Source: an uncultured bacterium (GTDB lineage: Bacteria > Cyanobacteriota > Vampirovibrionia > Gastranaerophilales > Gastranaerophilaceae). Taken from it: DNA of 33,529 nt. Location: positions 1 to 33,529 of the forward strand of contig CASEDF010000019.1 in the NCBI GenBank assembly GCA_949286705.1, in the 5' to 3' direction. The translations under genes were made by a program, and so were the position numbers. This document shows, one piece after another, positions 1,940-7,264 of this stretch. Position 1 is the first letter of the stretch. Every line of letters starts with the position of its first letter. The notes beneath the pieces were generated by a model. That model did no database searches. It was not told where the DNA came from and worked only from the letters and a program-made list of their open reading frames with translations.

Positions 1940-3026
1940 GGTCGCAATAATCGGTGCGGGACCTGCAGGATGTATGTGTGCATATTTTTTGCAGAATTAT
2001 TGTGATGTAACTGTATTTGATTATGCAAGCCCTTTGCGGACACTTTTGCCCACAGGCGGCGGAAGGTGTAATCTTTCCTATGCCGAGTATGATTTTAAAG
2101 AACTTGCTAAAAATTACCCTCGCGGAGAAAAGTTTTTGTATTCAGTTTTTTCAAGGTTCGGGGTTTCTGACACAATTGATTTTTTTGAAAAAATTGGAGT
2201 AAAAACGTATGTTCAGGAGGATTTTAGAATTTTTCCGGTTTCGAACAGCTCAAAAGATGTAAGAGAAAAGTTCTTAAAGGCGCTTAATAAAGTCAGATTT
2301 AAAAAAGAAATGGTGTCTGAAATTGATTTTAAAGCTTATAATTATATTGTCATTGCAACAGGCGGGCATTCATCTTATGCAATGCTTAAAAATTCAGGAC
2401 ATAGTATAATCCCGCCGAAACCCGCACTTGTCGGGTTAAAAACGGAAGAAAAATTCCCCGCGGGTGTTGTTGTAAAAAATGTTTTATCCTGCGGCTTTCA
2501 GGACGACTTATTATTTACGCATGAAGGTGTTTCAGGTCCTTTGATTTATAAAATTTCTTCAATATATGCAAGGCATGATTTTCCTTATAATATCAGTTTT
2601 GACTTTTGCGGAAAGATTGATTTACAGGATTATCTGAATAAAAATCCGCATAAATCAATTAAAAATCTTCTTGCGGATTTTGTCCCGAAATCGTTTGCCG
2701 AATTTATCCTGTTTAAGGCGGCGATAAGTCCCGAGCAAAAATGTCATAATATTAATGCCGGTCTGCGCGATAAAATTCTGAAGTTATTAAATAATTTTGA
2801 GGTAAAAATGACAGGGGTTGCAAAGGGTGGTGAAGTTGTAACCTCAGGCGGGGTTCATTTGAATGAAGTTGATTCAAAAACAATGCAGTCAAAGATTGTT
2901 CCGAATTTATATTTTTGTGGAGAAGTGCTGGATATAGACGGTTTTTGCGGAGGTTTTAATTTACAGAACTGCTGGTCTACAGCTTATGCCGCATCACAAG
3001 GTATTATTGAAAAATTAAGCGTTTAG
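1911..3026 (+). CDS. HI0933/BaiN-like FAD-dependent oxidoreductase
   Basis: This is a flavoprotein of the HI0933-like family (aminoacetone oxidase/BaiN group); the substrate is not predictable. Seen: the Rossmann motif GAGPAGCMCAYFL near the N-terminus, the family hallmark TGGGRCNLS, YVQEDFRIFPVS, TGGHSSY, HEGVSGP, and the C-terminal FAD-closing segment GGVHLNEVD...LYFCGEVLDIDGFCGGFNLQ. All family landmarks are present. I chose the ATG at 1911 because it places the Rossmann strand about 13 residues in; a GTG at 1878 is the other in-frame option and would lengthen the overlap with folK. Length is 371 residues, slightly short for the family (about 390-410). Its 3' end overlaps the convergent gene at 3015 by 12 bases, with no terminator between them. 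Confidence 0.9.
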   Translation: MEQELNSISKVAIIGAGPAGCMCAYFLQNYCDVTVFDYASPLRTLLPTGGGRCNLSYAEYDFKELAKNYPRGEKFLYSVFSRFGVSDTIDFFEKIGVKTYVQEDFRIFPVSNSSKDVREKFLKALNKVRFKKEMVSEIDFKAYNYIVIATGGHSSYAMLKNSGHSIIPPKPALVGLKTEEKFPAGVVVKNVLSCGFQDDLLFTHEGVSGPLIYKISSIYARHDFPYNISFDFCGKIDLQDYLNKNPHKSIKNLLADFVPKSFAEFILFKAAISPEQKCHNINAGLRDKILKLLNNFEVKMTGVAKGGEVVTSGGVHLNEVDSKTMQSKIVPNLYFCGEVLDIDGFCGGFNLQNCWSTAYAASQGIIEKLSV

Positions 3027-4352
3027 AGCAAGTTCTTTTTCAATATCTTCTTTTACCTGAAAATCCTTGCTGCCGCTTAAATATCTTACTGCAATCATTA
3101 TAGCAGGTACAGCAATACCTAAAGCTGCAATACATGCGCCGAGGTTTTTAAGTACGGATTTTCTTTTTAGATTTTTTACTTTGTCTAAAAATGCGTCTAA
3201 AGTTTCGCCGGAATCGTTGTATTGCTTTAAAAGATTTTCGATTTTTGCATAGACTCCTTTGACGCCGGTTTTATTTTCATAGCTGCCGAAATCTATGAAT
3301 TTTCTGTTATCTATTAAATCTGATTTTGGCAGGGTTGGAATCTCATCACATTTTTTCGCTATTTTTACCAGAAAATCATCGGGATTTTTGTGTAAATATT
3401 CAAAAATTTCAACGTCTTTAGCATCTTTGGGAAAATTTTTAAGGCTTTCTTCAACTATTTTTTTGTCCGCAAATGCATTTTTAAGTTCTTCGCTTTCAAT
3501 TACTCTTGCATCAAGATCTATTGATTTGTTGTATTTTGCAACAGCTTGTTTCTCAAGAAATTTTTGTATGGGTTTGCTCGCAAAATACATGAATCCCCAG
3601 GTTGCACCCTCTTTTATTGTGTAACCGACAAATTCCTGTCCGTTCCTTGATTGTGATAATCTTTCGGCGGTTATAGAACCGTCGACTATCATAAGGTTTT
3701 GAACAGGGTCAAACATGAAGCCTTGAAGTTTTGAAACAAGATTACCTGTGAAGGAAATTTTAGGAGAAGCTTGCTGTTCATCTTCGGCATTTTTAATAAA
3801 TTCACCAAAACTTGTTCTTATATTGTTAAATTTTGTTTGTTTATTTTTTACTTTTGCGTGTTCCGCAAGAATTTCTTTTTTGGCTGCTTCTTTTGTTTGT
3901 TTGTGTCTGTATTTTGTAAGCATCGTATATGATGCAATAGTTAATGCAGTTGCTATCCCGAATTTTGTCAGGGCAAGTGATTTTGAAAATTTGGGATTGA
4001 TTTTTAAATTTTCAAGACTTTTTTTAATTTTTGTATTTTTTTCAAGTTCAATTGCTTTATCCAAGACTTCCGGATTTTGCAAAAGTCTTACATCGACTTT
4101 GGGGTCAATTTTGAGTGCCTTGTATAAAGTTAAATCAGTAATTTTTTTAAATACGGGTAATCCGAAAAGCCATATTGCCTGAGTTCCGAATTCGTCTAAA
4201 AACCGGTCTTTACCTTCCAGTTTGTCTCCTACGATATATGATCCTGCGGTAAGTCCTAAGCTGTTTGCTACATCTTTGACGGCAAGAGGGACAAGTGAAC
4301 TGGTATTTCCTAATGTTGAATATATTTTGCTTGCATTAATTGCGGGTATCAT
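3015..4352 (-). CDS. hypothetical protein with two membrane segments
   Basis: I do not recognise a family. The 445-residue protein is Lys-rich. It has hydrophobic stretches near residues 150-165 (FGIATALTIASYTML) and near the C-terminus (about 408-428, NLGACIAALGIAVPAIMIAV), and a moderately hydrophobic N-terminal third with Gly-rich turns. A central part (about 185-265) contains ISFTGNLVSKL and VDGSITAERLSQSRNGQEF. No catalytic motif stands out. Many hypothetical proteins of this lineage carry an F-[TK]-G-like motif, and ISFTG may be one, but that is recollection and not proof. The ATG at 4352 is preceded by AAGGAAA as a modest SD. The gene is transcribed alone, convergent with the FAD oxidoreductase. 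A membrane-anchored structural or cell-envelope role is possible but unproven. Confidence 0.75.
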   Translation of the reverse strand: MIPAINASKIYSTLGNTSSLVPLAVKDVANSLGLTAGSYIVGDKLEGKDRFLDEFGTQAIWLFGLPVFKKITDLTLYKALKIDPKVDVRLLQNPEVLDKAIELEKNTKIKKSLENLKINPKFSKSLALTKFGIATALTIASYTMLTKYRHKQTKEAAKKEILAEHAKVKNKQTKFNNIRTSFGEFIKNAEDEQQASPKISFTGNLVSKLQGFMFDPVQNLMIVDGSITAERLSQSRNGQEFVGYTIKEGATWGFMYFASKPIQKFLEKQAVAKYNKSIDLDARVIESEELKNAFADKKIVEESLKNFPKDAKDVEIFEYLHKNPDDFLVKIAKKCDEIPTLPKSDLIDNRKFIDFGSYENKTGVKGVYAKIENLLKQYNDSGETLDAFLDKVKNLKRKSVLKNLGACIAALGIAVPAIMIAVRYLSGSKDFQVKEDIEKELALNA

Positions 4353-4680
4353 TTTGTTATTTCCTTATTTTATAACCTACTACAAGCCCCAAATTAAATT
4401 CATTAATTTGACGATAGGGGCATTCGCCTTTTTTATTAAGTTTCGTCGCAGATTATAAATCATTTGAATTCCTTCCACATTTAGTTAAATTCGTAAAATA
4501 TTTTTATTGCTCTGTTATTATAATAATTTTACGTTTTTTTACAAAAAACAAGACCTTTTCATAAAAAAGGTCTTGTTTATATTTTTTTAACAATTAACAA
4601 TGTTCTCGTTATATAAACAAGCCCTTTTTATAGTTATTTGCTAATCGTCGTAATTGTTTTAACATTTTTTCCCTAAAAAA
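4353..4680. other. intergenic region between hypothetical gene and tRNA-Glu
   Basis: This AT-rich stretch holds no credible gene. Its right part carries a 14-bp terminator hairpin (4546-4578). Its left part, in the presumed 5' UTR of the minus-strand gene at 4352, has an imperfect hairpin with a GCCCC/GGGGC outer stem (4386-4390 and 4417-4421) enclosing AAATTAA/TTAATTT. A TATAAT on the minus strand (4457-4452) could be that gene's -10. No known riboswitch was recognised. Confidence 0.5.
4546..4578 (-). terminator. bidirectional Rho-independent terminator after tRNA-Glu
   Basis: The arms 4546-4559 and 4565-4578 pair perfectly over 14 bp around a 5-base loop. On the minus strand it is followed by a T-rich run and lies about 100 bases past the tRNA-Glu 3' end. 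A T tract also follows on the plus strand (4581-4588), so it can act both ways. Confidence 0.8.
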
Positions 4681-4753
4681 TACTCCCAGGGGAATTCGAA
4701 TCCCCGTCTACACCGTGAAAGGGTGTTGTCCTAGGCCTCTAGACGATGGGAGC
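4681..4753 (-). tRNA. tRNA-Glu (anticodon TTC)
   Basis: The 73-base minus-strand sequence begins GCTCCCATCGTCTAGAGG and folds as a full cloverleaf. The acceptor stem GCTCCCA pairs with TGGGAGT, with the G1-U72 wobble also typical of cyanobacterial/plastid tRNA-Glu. The anticodon arm is ACACC-CTTTCAC-GGTGT, giving anticodon TTC, and the T arm is GGGGATTCGAATTCCCC. The discriminator is A and CCA is not encoded. The D arm and sequence style resemble cyanobacterial tRNA-Glu, which supports the taxonomic reading. Confidence 0.97.
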
Positions 4754-4790
4754 AAGTGTATTCACGTTTTTTATAATAACCGAAGCATAA

Positions 4791-5846
4791 TTAATTGTCA
4801 ACCATAACTTTTGATTTTGTGGAAGTTTTTTCTATTTCGGTTATTATATCTGCAATTTCAGGTGAAATGTCCCTTTTATCTTTAAGGTTTTCTTTTACCA
4901 TTTGTGCAAATTCTGATTTTTTGAACTCATGCATGCCTCGGTGTTTGAATATTTCTTCTAATATTTTCACCATGCGTATATCCTGTTTTATAGCCTCAAG
5001 TTCTATCATTGAGATATTTTTCAAGCCGTATGACAGTGTTCTCTTTATTAATTCCAGCGGCAGTGCATCTTCAAATTCGCCGCATTTAAGAACATGTACT
5101 TTATCAAATTTTCTTAATCGCGGTTGTATTTCTTTAAAATTGATTTCTGCATCATTATCCAGTAAGACAAAAATAGGAATTTTTAATTCATACGAAAGGT
5201 TATAAAACAGCTTAACAACCTGATTTTTGCCTCCTGCTGATAATATGTATACGCCGTTTTTCCCAAAATCATATCCGTAAATTCGCGCTAATTCGGGCAG
5301 TAGTATTTCTTCGGTTATTCCTTCCGAAATTATGACCTTTTCAAGCGGGAATTTTAACCCGAGTTTTTCCCGATCTTTTATTAAATCTTTTGAATCAGCA
5401 AGATTTTTTAGCCATTTTAAGTTGAATGGTCCGGTGTCGTCAATAAGTTCAAGACATGCTTTATAATTTATCCGGTTTTTCAATAGTTCAGCAGTGTTTT
5501 TATCAATTTTGAATATAGAATTTTCATAATCAAATAATTTTTGATTTATATGGTAATCTTGTTTTAAAGTAAATCCTAAGCTTTGTAGTGAAAAATTTAT
5601 AATTTCTTCCGCAATATTTTTTATTTCTGTATATTCCATTGTATCAAGATCGGATTTTTTAAATTTCGGATATATGAGGTTATTTATAATAACATCTTTA
5701 AATACCCGCAAATATTTTGTTTCGGGTATTTTAAATCTGGTAAGCCTGTCTATTGATATTAATATTTGTTCTTTTGTAAGCGGTTTTATTTTCAGCAAGT
5801 TAGCCTCATTGTTACATTTTTTATAAATATATAAATTTTTTAGCAA
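4791..5846 (-). CDS. TOPRIM (OLD-like) domain protein lacking an ATPase domain
   Basis: The C-terminal half carries a TOPRIM fold like that of OLD-family nucleases: VIISEGITEEILLP (Glu175 as the first metal ligand), LSAGGKNQV (about 202-210), then IFVLLDNDAE with Asp230 and Asp232 forming the DxD pair. OLD proteins cleave DNA with this domain but normally carry an N-terminal ABC ATPase. Here the first 165 residues show no Walker A, no signature motif and no clear family. The C-terminal tail (HRGMHEFKKSEFAQMVKENL) is of the kind seen in OLD TOPRIM regions. The start is a TTG at 5846 directly after an in-frame stop, with no good SD, so the true start may lie further in; the first ATG is residue 70. 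It is divergent from the gene at 5888. Nuclease activity is inference. Confidence 0.75.
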   Translation of the reverse strand: MLKNLYIYKKCNNEANLLKIKPLTKEQILISIDRLTRFKIPETKYLRVFKDVIINNLIYPKFKKSDLDTMEYTEIKNIAEEIINFSLQSLGFTLKQDYHINQKLFDYENSIFKIDKNTAELLKNRINYKACLELIDDTGPFNLKWLKNLADSKDLIKDREKLGLKFPLEKVIISEGITEEILLPELARIYGYDFGKNGVYILSAGGKNQVVKLFYNLSYELKIPIFVLLDNDAEINFKEIQPRLRKFDKVHVLKCGEFEDALPLELIKRTLSYGLKNISMIELEAIKQDIRMVKILEEIFKHRGMHEFKKSEFAQMVKENLKDKRDISPEIADIITEIEKTSTKSKVMVDN

Positions 5847-5887: not shown

Positions 5888-7264
5888 ATGGTAGATTCAG
5901 TTAATAATATTCATCAATATAATTATAACACAGTCGCAAATATCAGACCTGATAAACTTGATAATGCGGCAAAAATTTCTGCGTCTTACCTTTCCAATCC
6001 CATAAATTCACTTCCGTTTAATTCGTCAAACAGAGTGTTAAATAAGCGTACAGAGCTTGCATCCGCTGATGAAAAACAAAAATACAACGATCTTTTAAAA
6101 TTTGTGGATAAGAATACCAAAAAGCAGTTAGAATTACTTTTAAAGAGCGGAATACTTTTAAACAGTGAATCCAATGATCACTCCACAGTATTGGATAATC
6201 TTTATAAAATGGCAACTACTCCACGTGCGCAAGGTTTGAGCAAAGAGGGTATCCTGAAGGATACTATTGATACTATTGCGTATCCGTTTATCATTACCCA
6301 ACAATTCGGCGATATTCCGTCATCATACCGCCAGAGGGCATTGGATGCGAACACCGATGGTGAAACAAATCTTGTAAAACATTTTGTAGCTAAGAATGAC
6401 ATTGATGTTGAACATTCGGGTACTTGTGTTGCAGCAAGTATAGAATTCAATCTCGCTGAAAAAATGCCTGCGGAATTTGTGCGTTTCGCGGAAGGTTTGT
6501 CATCACCTTCTATGTCAGTAAAAAAAGAAATCAAGCTGCGTAATCTGGCAGATCATGCCCTTGATGCCATATGGCTTTTAAATGCTTTTGAAATTCCTTA
6601 TGAAACCAATAGTTTTGACAGAGCATTGTTGACATTTGCACCTGATAAAAACGCGATTATCCGTGCACAAATTCAAACAACGGATAGAGATCCTCTTGAA
6701 CGTTCTCCCCTTGATGTATTGATGCAGTCTACTTTTATGCAGGTAGGCTCTCAACAATCTTATAACACATTAACTGACAGACGCCTCGGAAAGTTTAATC
6801 AGAATGATAAAGGGTTAATTGAATTTGAAAAAACGTTTACCGAATCAGTTGTCGAAGATAAAAGTAAACTTTCCGTTACTTATCAAACTGTTGATGAAAA
6901 TGCAAGACTTATAGGCTATGAAACTGATTTTGATACGATGAAAAAACATCTTTTGACAGCTCTTGATATGGGTGAAAATGTCATAATAGGTTATACTCAG
7001 GTTGACCAGAATAATATTATAATTAACGGGCATGAAATTACTATCATAGGTTATAAGCATAGTCCTGAGGGTAAGTTGATATTTATTTGCAACGATACCG
7101 ATGACAATCAGACAAAACCCGTAGAATATACGGAAGATTATCTGCTTCCAAAAATTCATCACGCAGCGTTACCGGAAAGTATTGTTGCGGACGATTTAAC
7201 AGTTACACCTAATTGGGTGGAAGGTTTGAATATATATAAAGAAATGAAAAATAAGGCGGCTTAA
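5888..7264 (+). CDS. putative papain-like Cys-His protein
   Basis: No close family is recognised. The 458-residue protein has no signal peptide or membrane segment. Two motifs suggest a cysteine-peptidase-like fold: EHSGTCVAASIEF with Cys180 at a helix start, and INGHEITIIGY with His382 followed about 20 residues later by ICNDTDD (Asn402/Asp403). The order Cys, then His, then Asn/Asp and the strand pattern around the His match papain-like and C39-like enzymes, but overall similarity cannot be judged by eye. The N-terminal 60 residues are Asn/Ser-rich and look disordered. The ATG has a strong SD (GGAGTAGGA). One base separates its stop from the nucleotidase-like gene, so the pair is certainly co-transcribed and probably acts together. 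Confidence 0.8.
   Translation: MVDSVNNIHQYNYNTVANIRPDKLDNAAKISASYLSNPINSLPFNSSNRVLNKRTELASADEKQKYNDLLKFVDKNTKKQLELLLKSGILLNSESNDHSTVLDNLYKMATTPRAQGLSKEGILKDTIDTIAYPFIITQQFGDIPSSYRQRALDANTDGETNLVKHFVAKNDIDVEHSGTCVAASIEFNLAEKMPAEFVRFAEGLSSPSMSVKKEIKLRNLADHALDAIWLLNAFEIPYETNSFDRALLTFAPDKNAIIRAQIQTTDRDPLERSPLDVLMQSTFMQVGSQQSYNTLTDRRLGKFNQNDKGLIEFEKTFTESVVEDKSKLSVTYQTVDENARLIGYETDFDTMKKHLLTALDMGENVIIGYTQVDQNNIIINGHEITIIGYKHSPEGKLIFICNDTDDNQTKPVEYTEDYLLPKIHHAALPESIVADDLTVTPNWVEGLNIYKEMKNKAA

Follow-up and report, generated by a model that had tools for sequence, protein, structure and literature searches.

The window, by which we mean the whole 33,529-nucleotide stretch analysed here from an uncultured member of the Gastranaerophilaceae, encodes a small OLD-type TOPRIM protein that stands without an ATPase domain. 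We consider it rather likely that this protein acts as a metal-dependent nuclease or nickase with a catalytic core (TOPRIM and helical part) like that of class 2 OLD proteins, joined to a basic, all-helical N-terminal domain that is specific to the family and stands in place of the ABC ATPase, and that it is vertically inherited and probably serves a housekeeping function. The gene occurs in the Gastranaerophilales and in a number of sister lineages within the class, and it is not universal in that class. OLD proteins have mostly been described as ATPase-nucleases of phage defence in which the ATPase restrains the nuclease. Because the search for the ATPase of this family was negative, we refer to the protein as OLD-like and not as an OLD protein. 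The source genome comprises about 1.85 Mb, and MAGs of Candidatus Gastranaerophilales are the nearest to it among named genomes.

The open reading frame 4791-5846 on the reverse strand, from which the earlier note started, is present in the window. An alignment of homologues points to a shorter coding sequence (Table 1). Since same-family relatives mostly align from residues 16-19 of the longer frame, many of the aligned upstream regions have a TTG behind a GAGG-like ribosome-binding site, and the TTG at 5846 sits within a conserved A-rich TTGCT box, we have placed the likely start at the TTG at 5798. The N-terminal part would thus measure about 149 residues instead of the 165 given previously, and all residue numbers below refer to the 335-residue form. 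The TTGCT box may be a promoter element; a consensus promoter scan called nothing in its region. With a GC content of 30%, compared with 33-40% for eleven neighbours, the gene has the lowest value among the twelve measured (eleven named genes, including the nuclease gene, plus the window).

Table 1. Positions of the nuclease gene, its domains and adjoining features in the window.
Feature	Position	Strand	Remarks
Stand-alone OLD-type TOPRIM protein, CDS	4791..5798	-	335 aa; likely TTG start 5798-5796 after GAGG
N-terminal all-helical domain, residues 1-146	5361..5798	-	predicted model and homologue alignment; not an ABC ATPase
TOPRIM domain, residues 153-236	5091..5342	-	E159, E163, G189-G190, D214, D216
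C-terminal helical part, residues 237-329	4812..5090	-	G240-E241-x-E243-D244 and K294
Upstream extension of the longer ORF	5799..5846	-	probably untranslated/promoter; conserved TTGCT box 5846-5841
tRNA-Glu (TTC)	4680..4754	-	36 bases 3' of the nuclease gene, same strand; synteny in close relatives
TTGACA-17-TATTAT	4773..4801	-	11/12 consensus matches; overlaps CDS 3' end/stop region
Divergent neighbour, predicted papain-fold protein	5888..7264	+	458 aa; invariant Q138, C180, H382

The assignment to the OLD-type TOPRIM group comes from both sequence and predicted structure. OLD-like_TOPRIM (PF20469) was the sole Pfam family found up to an E value of 1 (55.9 bits, cut-off 23.2), PADLOC likewise recognised the TOPRIM part through its GajA and Old models, and HMMER profile matches to the PDB led to the C-terminal regions of the class 2 OLD proteins 6njv (5.3e-8) and 6nk8 (4.6e-5). 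When an AlphaFold2 model (73-sequence alignment; mean pLDDT 92.3, pTM 0.87) was compared with solved structures, the top Foldseek matches were again C-terminal regions of class 2 OLD proteins (6njv, E 3.2e-4). The best solved match of VIA-align 2 was 6nk8_A with a Z score of 15.5 and an rmsd of 3.0 Å over 169 aligned residues; GajA and TsOLD scored about 10, retron Eco2 9.0 and RNase M5 7.2, the last value lying in the background range. The earlier note had named a non-nuclease fold as one outcome that would speak against its reading; the fold predicted here is that of the OLD nucleases.

In 25 of 25 diverse homologues, which share 25-83% identity with the window protein overall and 15-79% in the N-terminal part, the residues E159, E163, G189, G190, D214, D216, G240, E241, E243, D244 and K294 are identical. 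They include the glutamate, glycine and DxD pattern typical of the OLD-family TOPRIM motif (E159, G189-G190, D214, D216), and the three catalytic residues already noticed as Glu175, Asp230 and Asp232 correspond to E159, D214 and D216. For BpOLD, the structural study assigns E400, D455 and D457 to metal A and E404, T506 and E508 to metal B, with K562 as a critical lysine (PMC6755086). E159, E163, D214 and D216 align with E400, E404, D455 and D457 of BpOLD in HMMER, and E243 and K294 correspond to E508 and K562 by order and position. Likewise, candidates for the metal-B and lysine set of the family are the invariant E163, E241, E243, D244 and K294, where the pair E163-E404 is aligned by HMMER and the others are matched by position. 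We thus propose, on positional grounds, the GExED motif (G240-E241-x-E243-D244) and K294 as the metal-B and lysine positions. In the enzyme, metal A would be bound by E159, D214 and D216 and metal B by E163 together with the GExED motif, and K294 would assist cleavage. As a TOPRIM site by itself is no proof of cleavage, the nuclease activity is a predicted one.

The N-terminal domain has a different character. Because the high-confidence model of residues 1-146 is helical, its strand content being limited to short bridges and a single stretch of three residues, the domain contains no ABC sheet. In the model the TOPRIM spans residues 154-236, and what follows it is helical. It is basic (pI 9.1 for residues 1-150) and carries an LTRF motif that is conserved in most members. 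No Pfam ATPase family exceeded its cut-off in the nuclease protein, and AAA_14 appeared in one of the 25 members at E 0.08. A Walker A motif was found neither in the 25 alignment members nor in 80 homologous frames from the class, that is, stop-to-stop frames of class genomes scoring over 60 bits, a set outside which lie OLD-sized frames with weak TOPRIM matches (e.g. L224, L227 and L228). The suggestion that this part is not an ABC ATPase is therefore upheld, and homologues with an ATPase that had been lost here, the second outcome named as adverse, did not turn up among the 80 class frames. Full-length structure searches, whose lists barely test the N-terminal domain, reported no match to it. 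The domain might provide substrate recognition and restraint, the job of the ATPase in OLD and GajA.

Of 59 genomes, namely the source genome and 58 relatives, 57 gave a match to the window protein. Members of the same family have it at one place per genome, the exception being G026, which shows an additional weak match within a frame of 607 aa; a complete-looking genome of this family (G143) gave no match to the nuclease family. The profile matches 260 of the 289 class genomes, a count that includes a few weak, non-orthologous matches such as the one in G071. Among the genomes listed, nearly all class members without a match belong to families f10-f12: the listed f11 and f12 genomes gave none, and f10 gave a single weak match in a 689-aa frame. 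Owing to this absence from the listed f11 and f12 genomes, the gene cannot be essential everywhere. Across the phylum, 109 of the 244 genomes sampled match, and the only ones outside the class (G323 and G425) do so weakly. The scan of genome contigs lists the best 80 of 319 relatives.

Identity falls with kinship, from 61-83% within the genus to 36-60% within the family and 34-40% within the order (there often for the C-terminal part only), as expected for vertical descent. The NG86 dN/dS ratio lies between 0.08 and 0.16 in all twelve pairs compared; these values are rough, as dS ranges from 0.8 to 2.6 and is partly saturated. A few of the same genomes hold second, weak TOPRIM matches at separate places, in frames of OLD size (602-704 aa). 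That the gene is what decay has left of a complete OLD gene, which its shortness relative to OLD proteins and its GC content, the lowest of the twelve genes, might suggest, is extremely improbable and was rejected, given an intact and invariant catalytic set, purifying selection, the presence in 57 of 59 genomes and the lack of Walker A in all 80 family frames of the class.

Several deviating gene forms were observed. Open frames of about 200 aa in G050 and G053 match to the TOPRIM and C-terminal part only. TOPRIM-only versions at L052 4351-4914 and L053 4856-5410 adjoin a papain-fold gene, the N-terminal domain being unmatched. Two f3 genomes (L050 near 4117-4468, L051 near 2001-2469) have the N-terminal part in an open frame that offers no ATG, GTG or TTG start; the ATA located behind an AGAAAGG-like site in L050 hints at a start codon of a non-standard kind. 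One MAG (BRZ_AK__bin103; G005/L118 4949-5536 / L017) has the gene in two frames, through either an assembly error or a pseudogene. The short frame of G201 ends at a contig end and says nothing on truncation.

Mobile elements yielded little. The IMG/VR scan returned 112 stretches with the pattern, none of them a relative, and among 72,556 plasmid records a single one matched at E 1e-3, by a short match inside an AAA ATPase. At E 1e-2, three of 50,697 phage records matched, the best being that of Microcystis phage MaAM05 (MW495066.1; L247 3299-4645). Its homologue is located near pxpA and guaD genes, and since it is 91.5% identical over 448 aa to that of a class bacterium (G092), the record probably holds bacterial DNA.

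The gene does adjoin a tRNA, as had been noted, and the idea that this marks an acquired gene has to be given up. Both in the window and in 36 of the 80 named loci (L095-L174), tRNA-Glu lies 3' of the gene and shares its strand, at offsets of 30-89 except for 462 at the split gene of L118, and 57 of the 59 genomes gave a match to the gene itself. No tRNA was found within 600 bases at another 42 loci from other relatives (L059-L078 left out). An insertion at the tRNA was consequently rejected: an arrangement of this orientation that recurs in close loci is conserved synteny, not an insertion scar. The TTGACA-17-TATTAT sequence is a possible promoter of tRNA-Glu, a suggestive reading only, as the scan called 4 sites in the region compared with 7.0 expected in shuffles. 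A tRNA promoter over the last codons may explain the VDN terminus that the window protein shares with four close relatives. Beyond the tRNA, a 445-aa protein (3015-4352, reverse strand) without a Pfam match over the cut-off has N-terminal patterns like those of other proteins in these genomes. With gene names read off the sequences, pyrH comes next after the nuclease gene in 7 of 28 loci examined; six of these seven continue with frr, cdsA and rpe, and rnc precedes rpe in five. The operon neighbours vary between lineages.

Taken as a whole, the best reading is a stand-alone, Mg-dependent nuclease or nickase of housekeeping-like character, as predicted from sequence and model. DNA is slightly favoured over RNA as the presumed substrate, given that the nearest relatives of known structure are DNA-cutting enzymes. 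A tentative alternative is a ribonuclease that processes or controls tRNA, rRNA or mRNA in the manner of RNase M5, AriB or the TOPRIM of retron Eco2. The ATPase-less OLD-type TOPRIMs of known activity, namely that of Eco2 and AriB, which reportedly cuts RNA, are RNA-cutting enzymes. For Eco2, the isolated TOPRIM is described as toxic and as cutting RNA (PMC12405507). RNase M5 has no match in the source genome, and pyrH and rnc stand in some of the loci described above. Against a ribonuclease speak the closest structural matches, which are DNA-cutting class 2 OLD proteins (PMC6755086), the absence of a match between the nuclease protein and any NCBIfam model, and operon neighbours that change from lineage to lineage. 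RNase M5 itself is a TOPRIM nuclease with a comparable metal site (PMC6755086), whereas the present protein is longer, carries other accessory domains and shows no sequence membership. An RNase M5 orthologue was thus rejected, as TIGR00334 has no match in the whole genome, the nuclease protein included.

A functional link with the divergent neighbour, either as a protease-controlled nuclease or as a co-regulated module, appears unlikely. The neighbouring protein matches no Pfam or NCBIfam model; its structural model (pLDDT 81.4) has its first 48 residues below 50, so that a disordered N-terminus is probable, at least as modelled. Papain-fold chains dominate its structure list (best Z 10.2, no Foldseek E below 0.001). 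All 20 sequences compared share Q138, C180 and H382, the conserved glutamine, cysteine and histidine of a putative papain-fold peptidase. Among the 55 order genomes whose locus could be used, the divergent pair occurs in 47 (46 of 54 relatives, and the window). This count leaves out G019 and G056, which gave no match, G051, whose partial match runs into a contig end, and G058, which belongs to another order; within it, G043 has tandem genes and G055, at a contig end, is scored as unpaired. It is also seen in 15 of 20 loci of families f2-f7, beside which BLAST found none of the window's sigma and flhB proteins and its 5'-nucleotidase in L046 alone. On the other hand, the partner lies elsewhere in six order members of the same sample, and in the own family at least 13 further g41 genomes and three of g46 have the two genes apart or on different contigs. 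The genomes compared from f9, f14 and f15 carry both genes, at a great distance from each other or on separate contigs. In f8 the TOPRIM is present and the partner gave a single weak match, and no partner match came from those f13 genomes that the class profile had matched. The shared position may be neutral. Pairing is a feature at the level of the order that has been broken repeatedly, and it does not imply function.

Even less probable is a single-gene anti-phage defence protein resembling class 1 OLD. The PADLOC matches to GajA and Old concern the TOPRIM part, and the parent families have mostly been described from defence (PMC10568477); this family resemblance is the sole positive argument, and we rate a defence role lower than that of a DNA or RNA enzyme. 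The near-universal occurrence in the own family at one place per genome (except G026), the constraint on the gene (dN/dS 0.08-0.16) and the absence of recognised defence genes beside it all argue against such a role, as do the separate OLD-sized frames of 602-704 aa with weak TOPRIM matches in a few of the same genomes and the IMG/VR scan, which confirmed no relative. Moreover, the protein lacks the ATPase domain, which is reported to be essential for the phenotypes of E. coli YbjD (PMC13261556). From the original proposal of a defence or DNA-processing protein with a new architecture we retain nucleic-acid processing and the unusual architecture, while defence is left with the family resemblance.

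We regard it as very unlikely that an ATPase acts in trans, be it in the style of AriA-AriB or through RecF. The division of ATPase and TOPRIM between two genes has a model in PARIS (PMC12796447), and RecF is present in the genome (TIGR00611, 308.7 bits). Yet AAA_15 picks up, apart from the RecF gene, just one frame, 1171 aa long and of SMC size; the six AAA_21 matches include these two frames and three others of 227-324 aa, and no ATPase was noticed among the recurring neighbours. A replacement of RecR was rejected since RecR itself is found in the genome.

The favoured reading, a housekeeping-like nuclease, can be set against known systems. The class 2 OLD proteins (BpOLD 6nk8, XccOLD 6njv, GajA of Gabija) are alike in TOPRIM and helical domain, give the best structure matches and, judged by position, would share the two-metal residue set and the lysine; they differ in having an ABC ATPase, whereas the protein described here has none and shows the distribution of a core gene. 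A UvrD-like helicase corresponding to GajB does not adjoin it in the window, where its surroundings are the papain-fold protein, tRNA-Glu and a protein for which no Pfam family scored above its cut-off. In class 4, the ABC ATPase is encoded by an adjacent gene; the two adjoining window proteins match no ATPase family. AriB of PARIS, which belongs to this class, likewise carries a TOPRIM nuclease on a protein separate from any ATPase, but an AriA-like neighbour of the nuclease gene is lacking in the window. DUF4435, which we take to be the family label of AriB, was matched by one of the 25 members, weakly (E 0.013). Retron Eco2 RT-TOPRIM combines an OLD-type TOPRIM without ABC ATPase and a complete two-metal site, but is fused to a reverse transcriptase with msDNA (PMC12405507), in place of the helical domain found here. 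No reverse transcriptase was matched in the nuclease protein, in which TOPRIM is the only Pfam match.

In its distribution, the Gastranaerophilales nuclease comes closest to Cran1, the class 5 OLD protein of the Sulfolobales, which is OLD-related, conserved in its order and apparently not a defence protein (PMC12796447), and which is the precedent for a non-defence OLD protein. Cran1 differs in that it keeps an ABC ATPase, needed by its nickase, and belongs to another domain of life (PMC12796447). ATPase-less OLD-type TOPRIMs are already known from PARIS AriB and retron Eco2; the form with a helical domain, encoded by a core gene, is a new variant, and a limited literature search found no published report of this family.

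Core genes that retain this nuclease core across much of a bacterial class while lacking the ATPase would reveal the non-defence work of the nuclease and how it can be restrained without ATP, and a small stand-alone enzyme would be convenient for biochemistry. It is improbable, though conceivable, that the protein is a class-wide OLD-derived nuclease of housekeeping type, essential in places, in which a helical regulator of its own replaces the ATP switch and a divergently encoded papain-like peptidase exerts control by cleavage. If true, a non-photosynthetic cyanobacterial class would possess an ATP-independent, proteolysis-controlled nuclease module, which is paired in most Gastranaerophilales.
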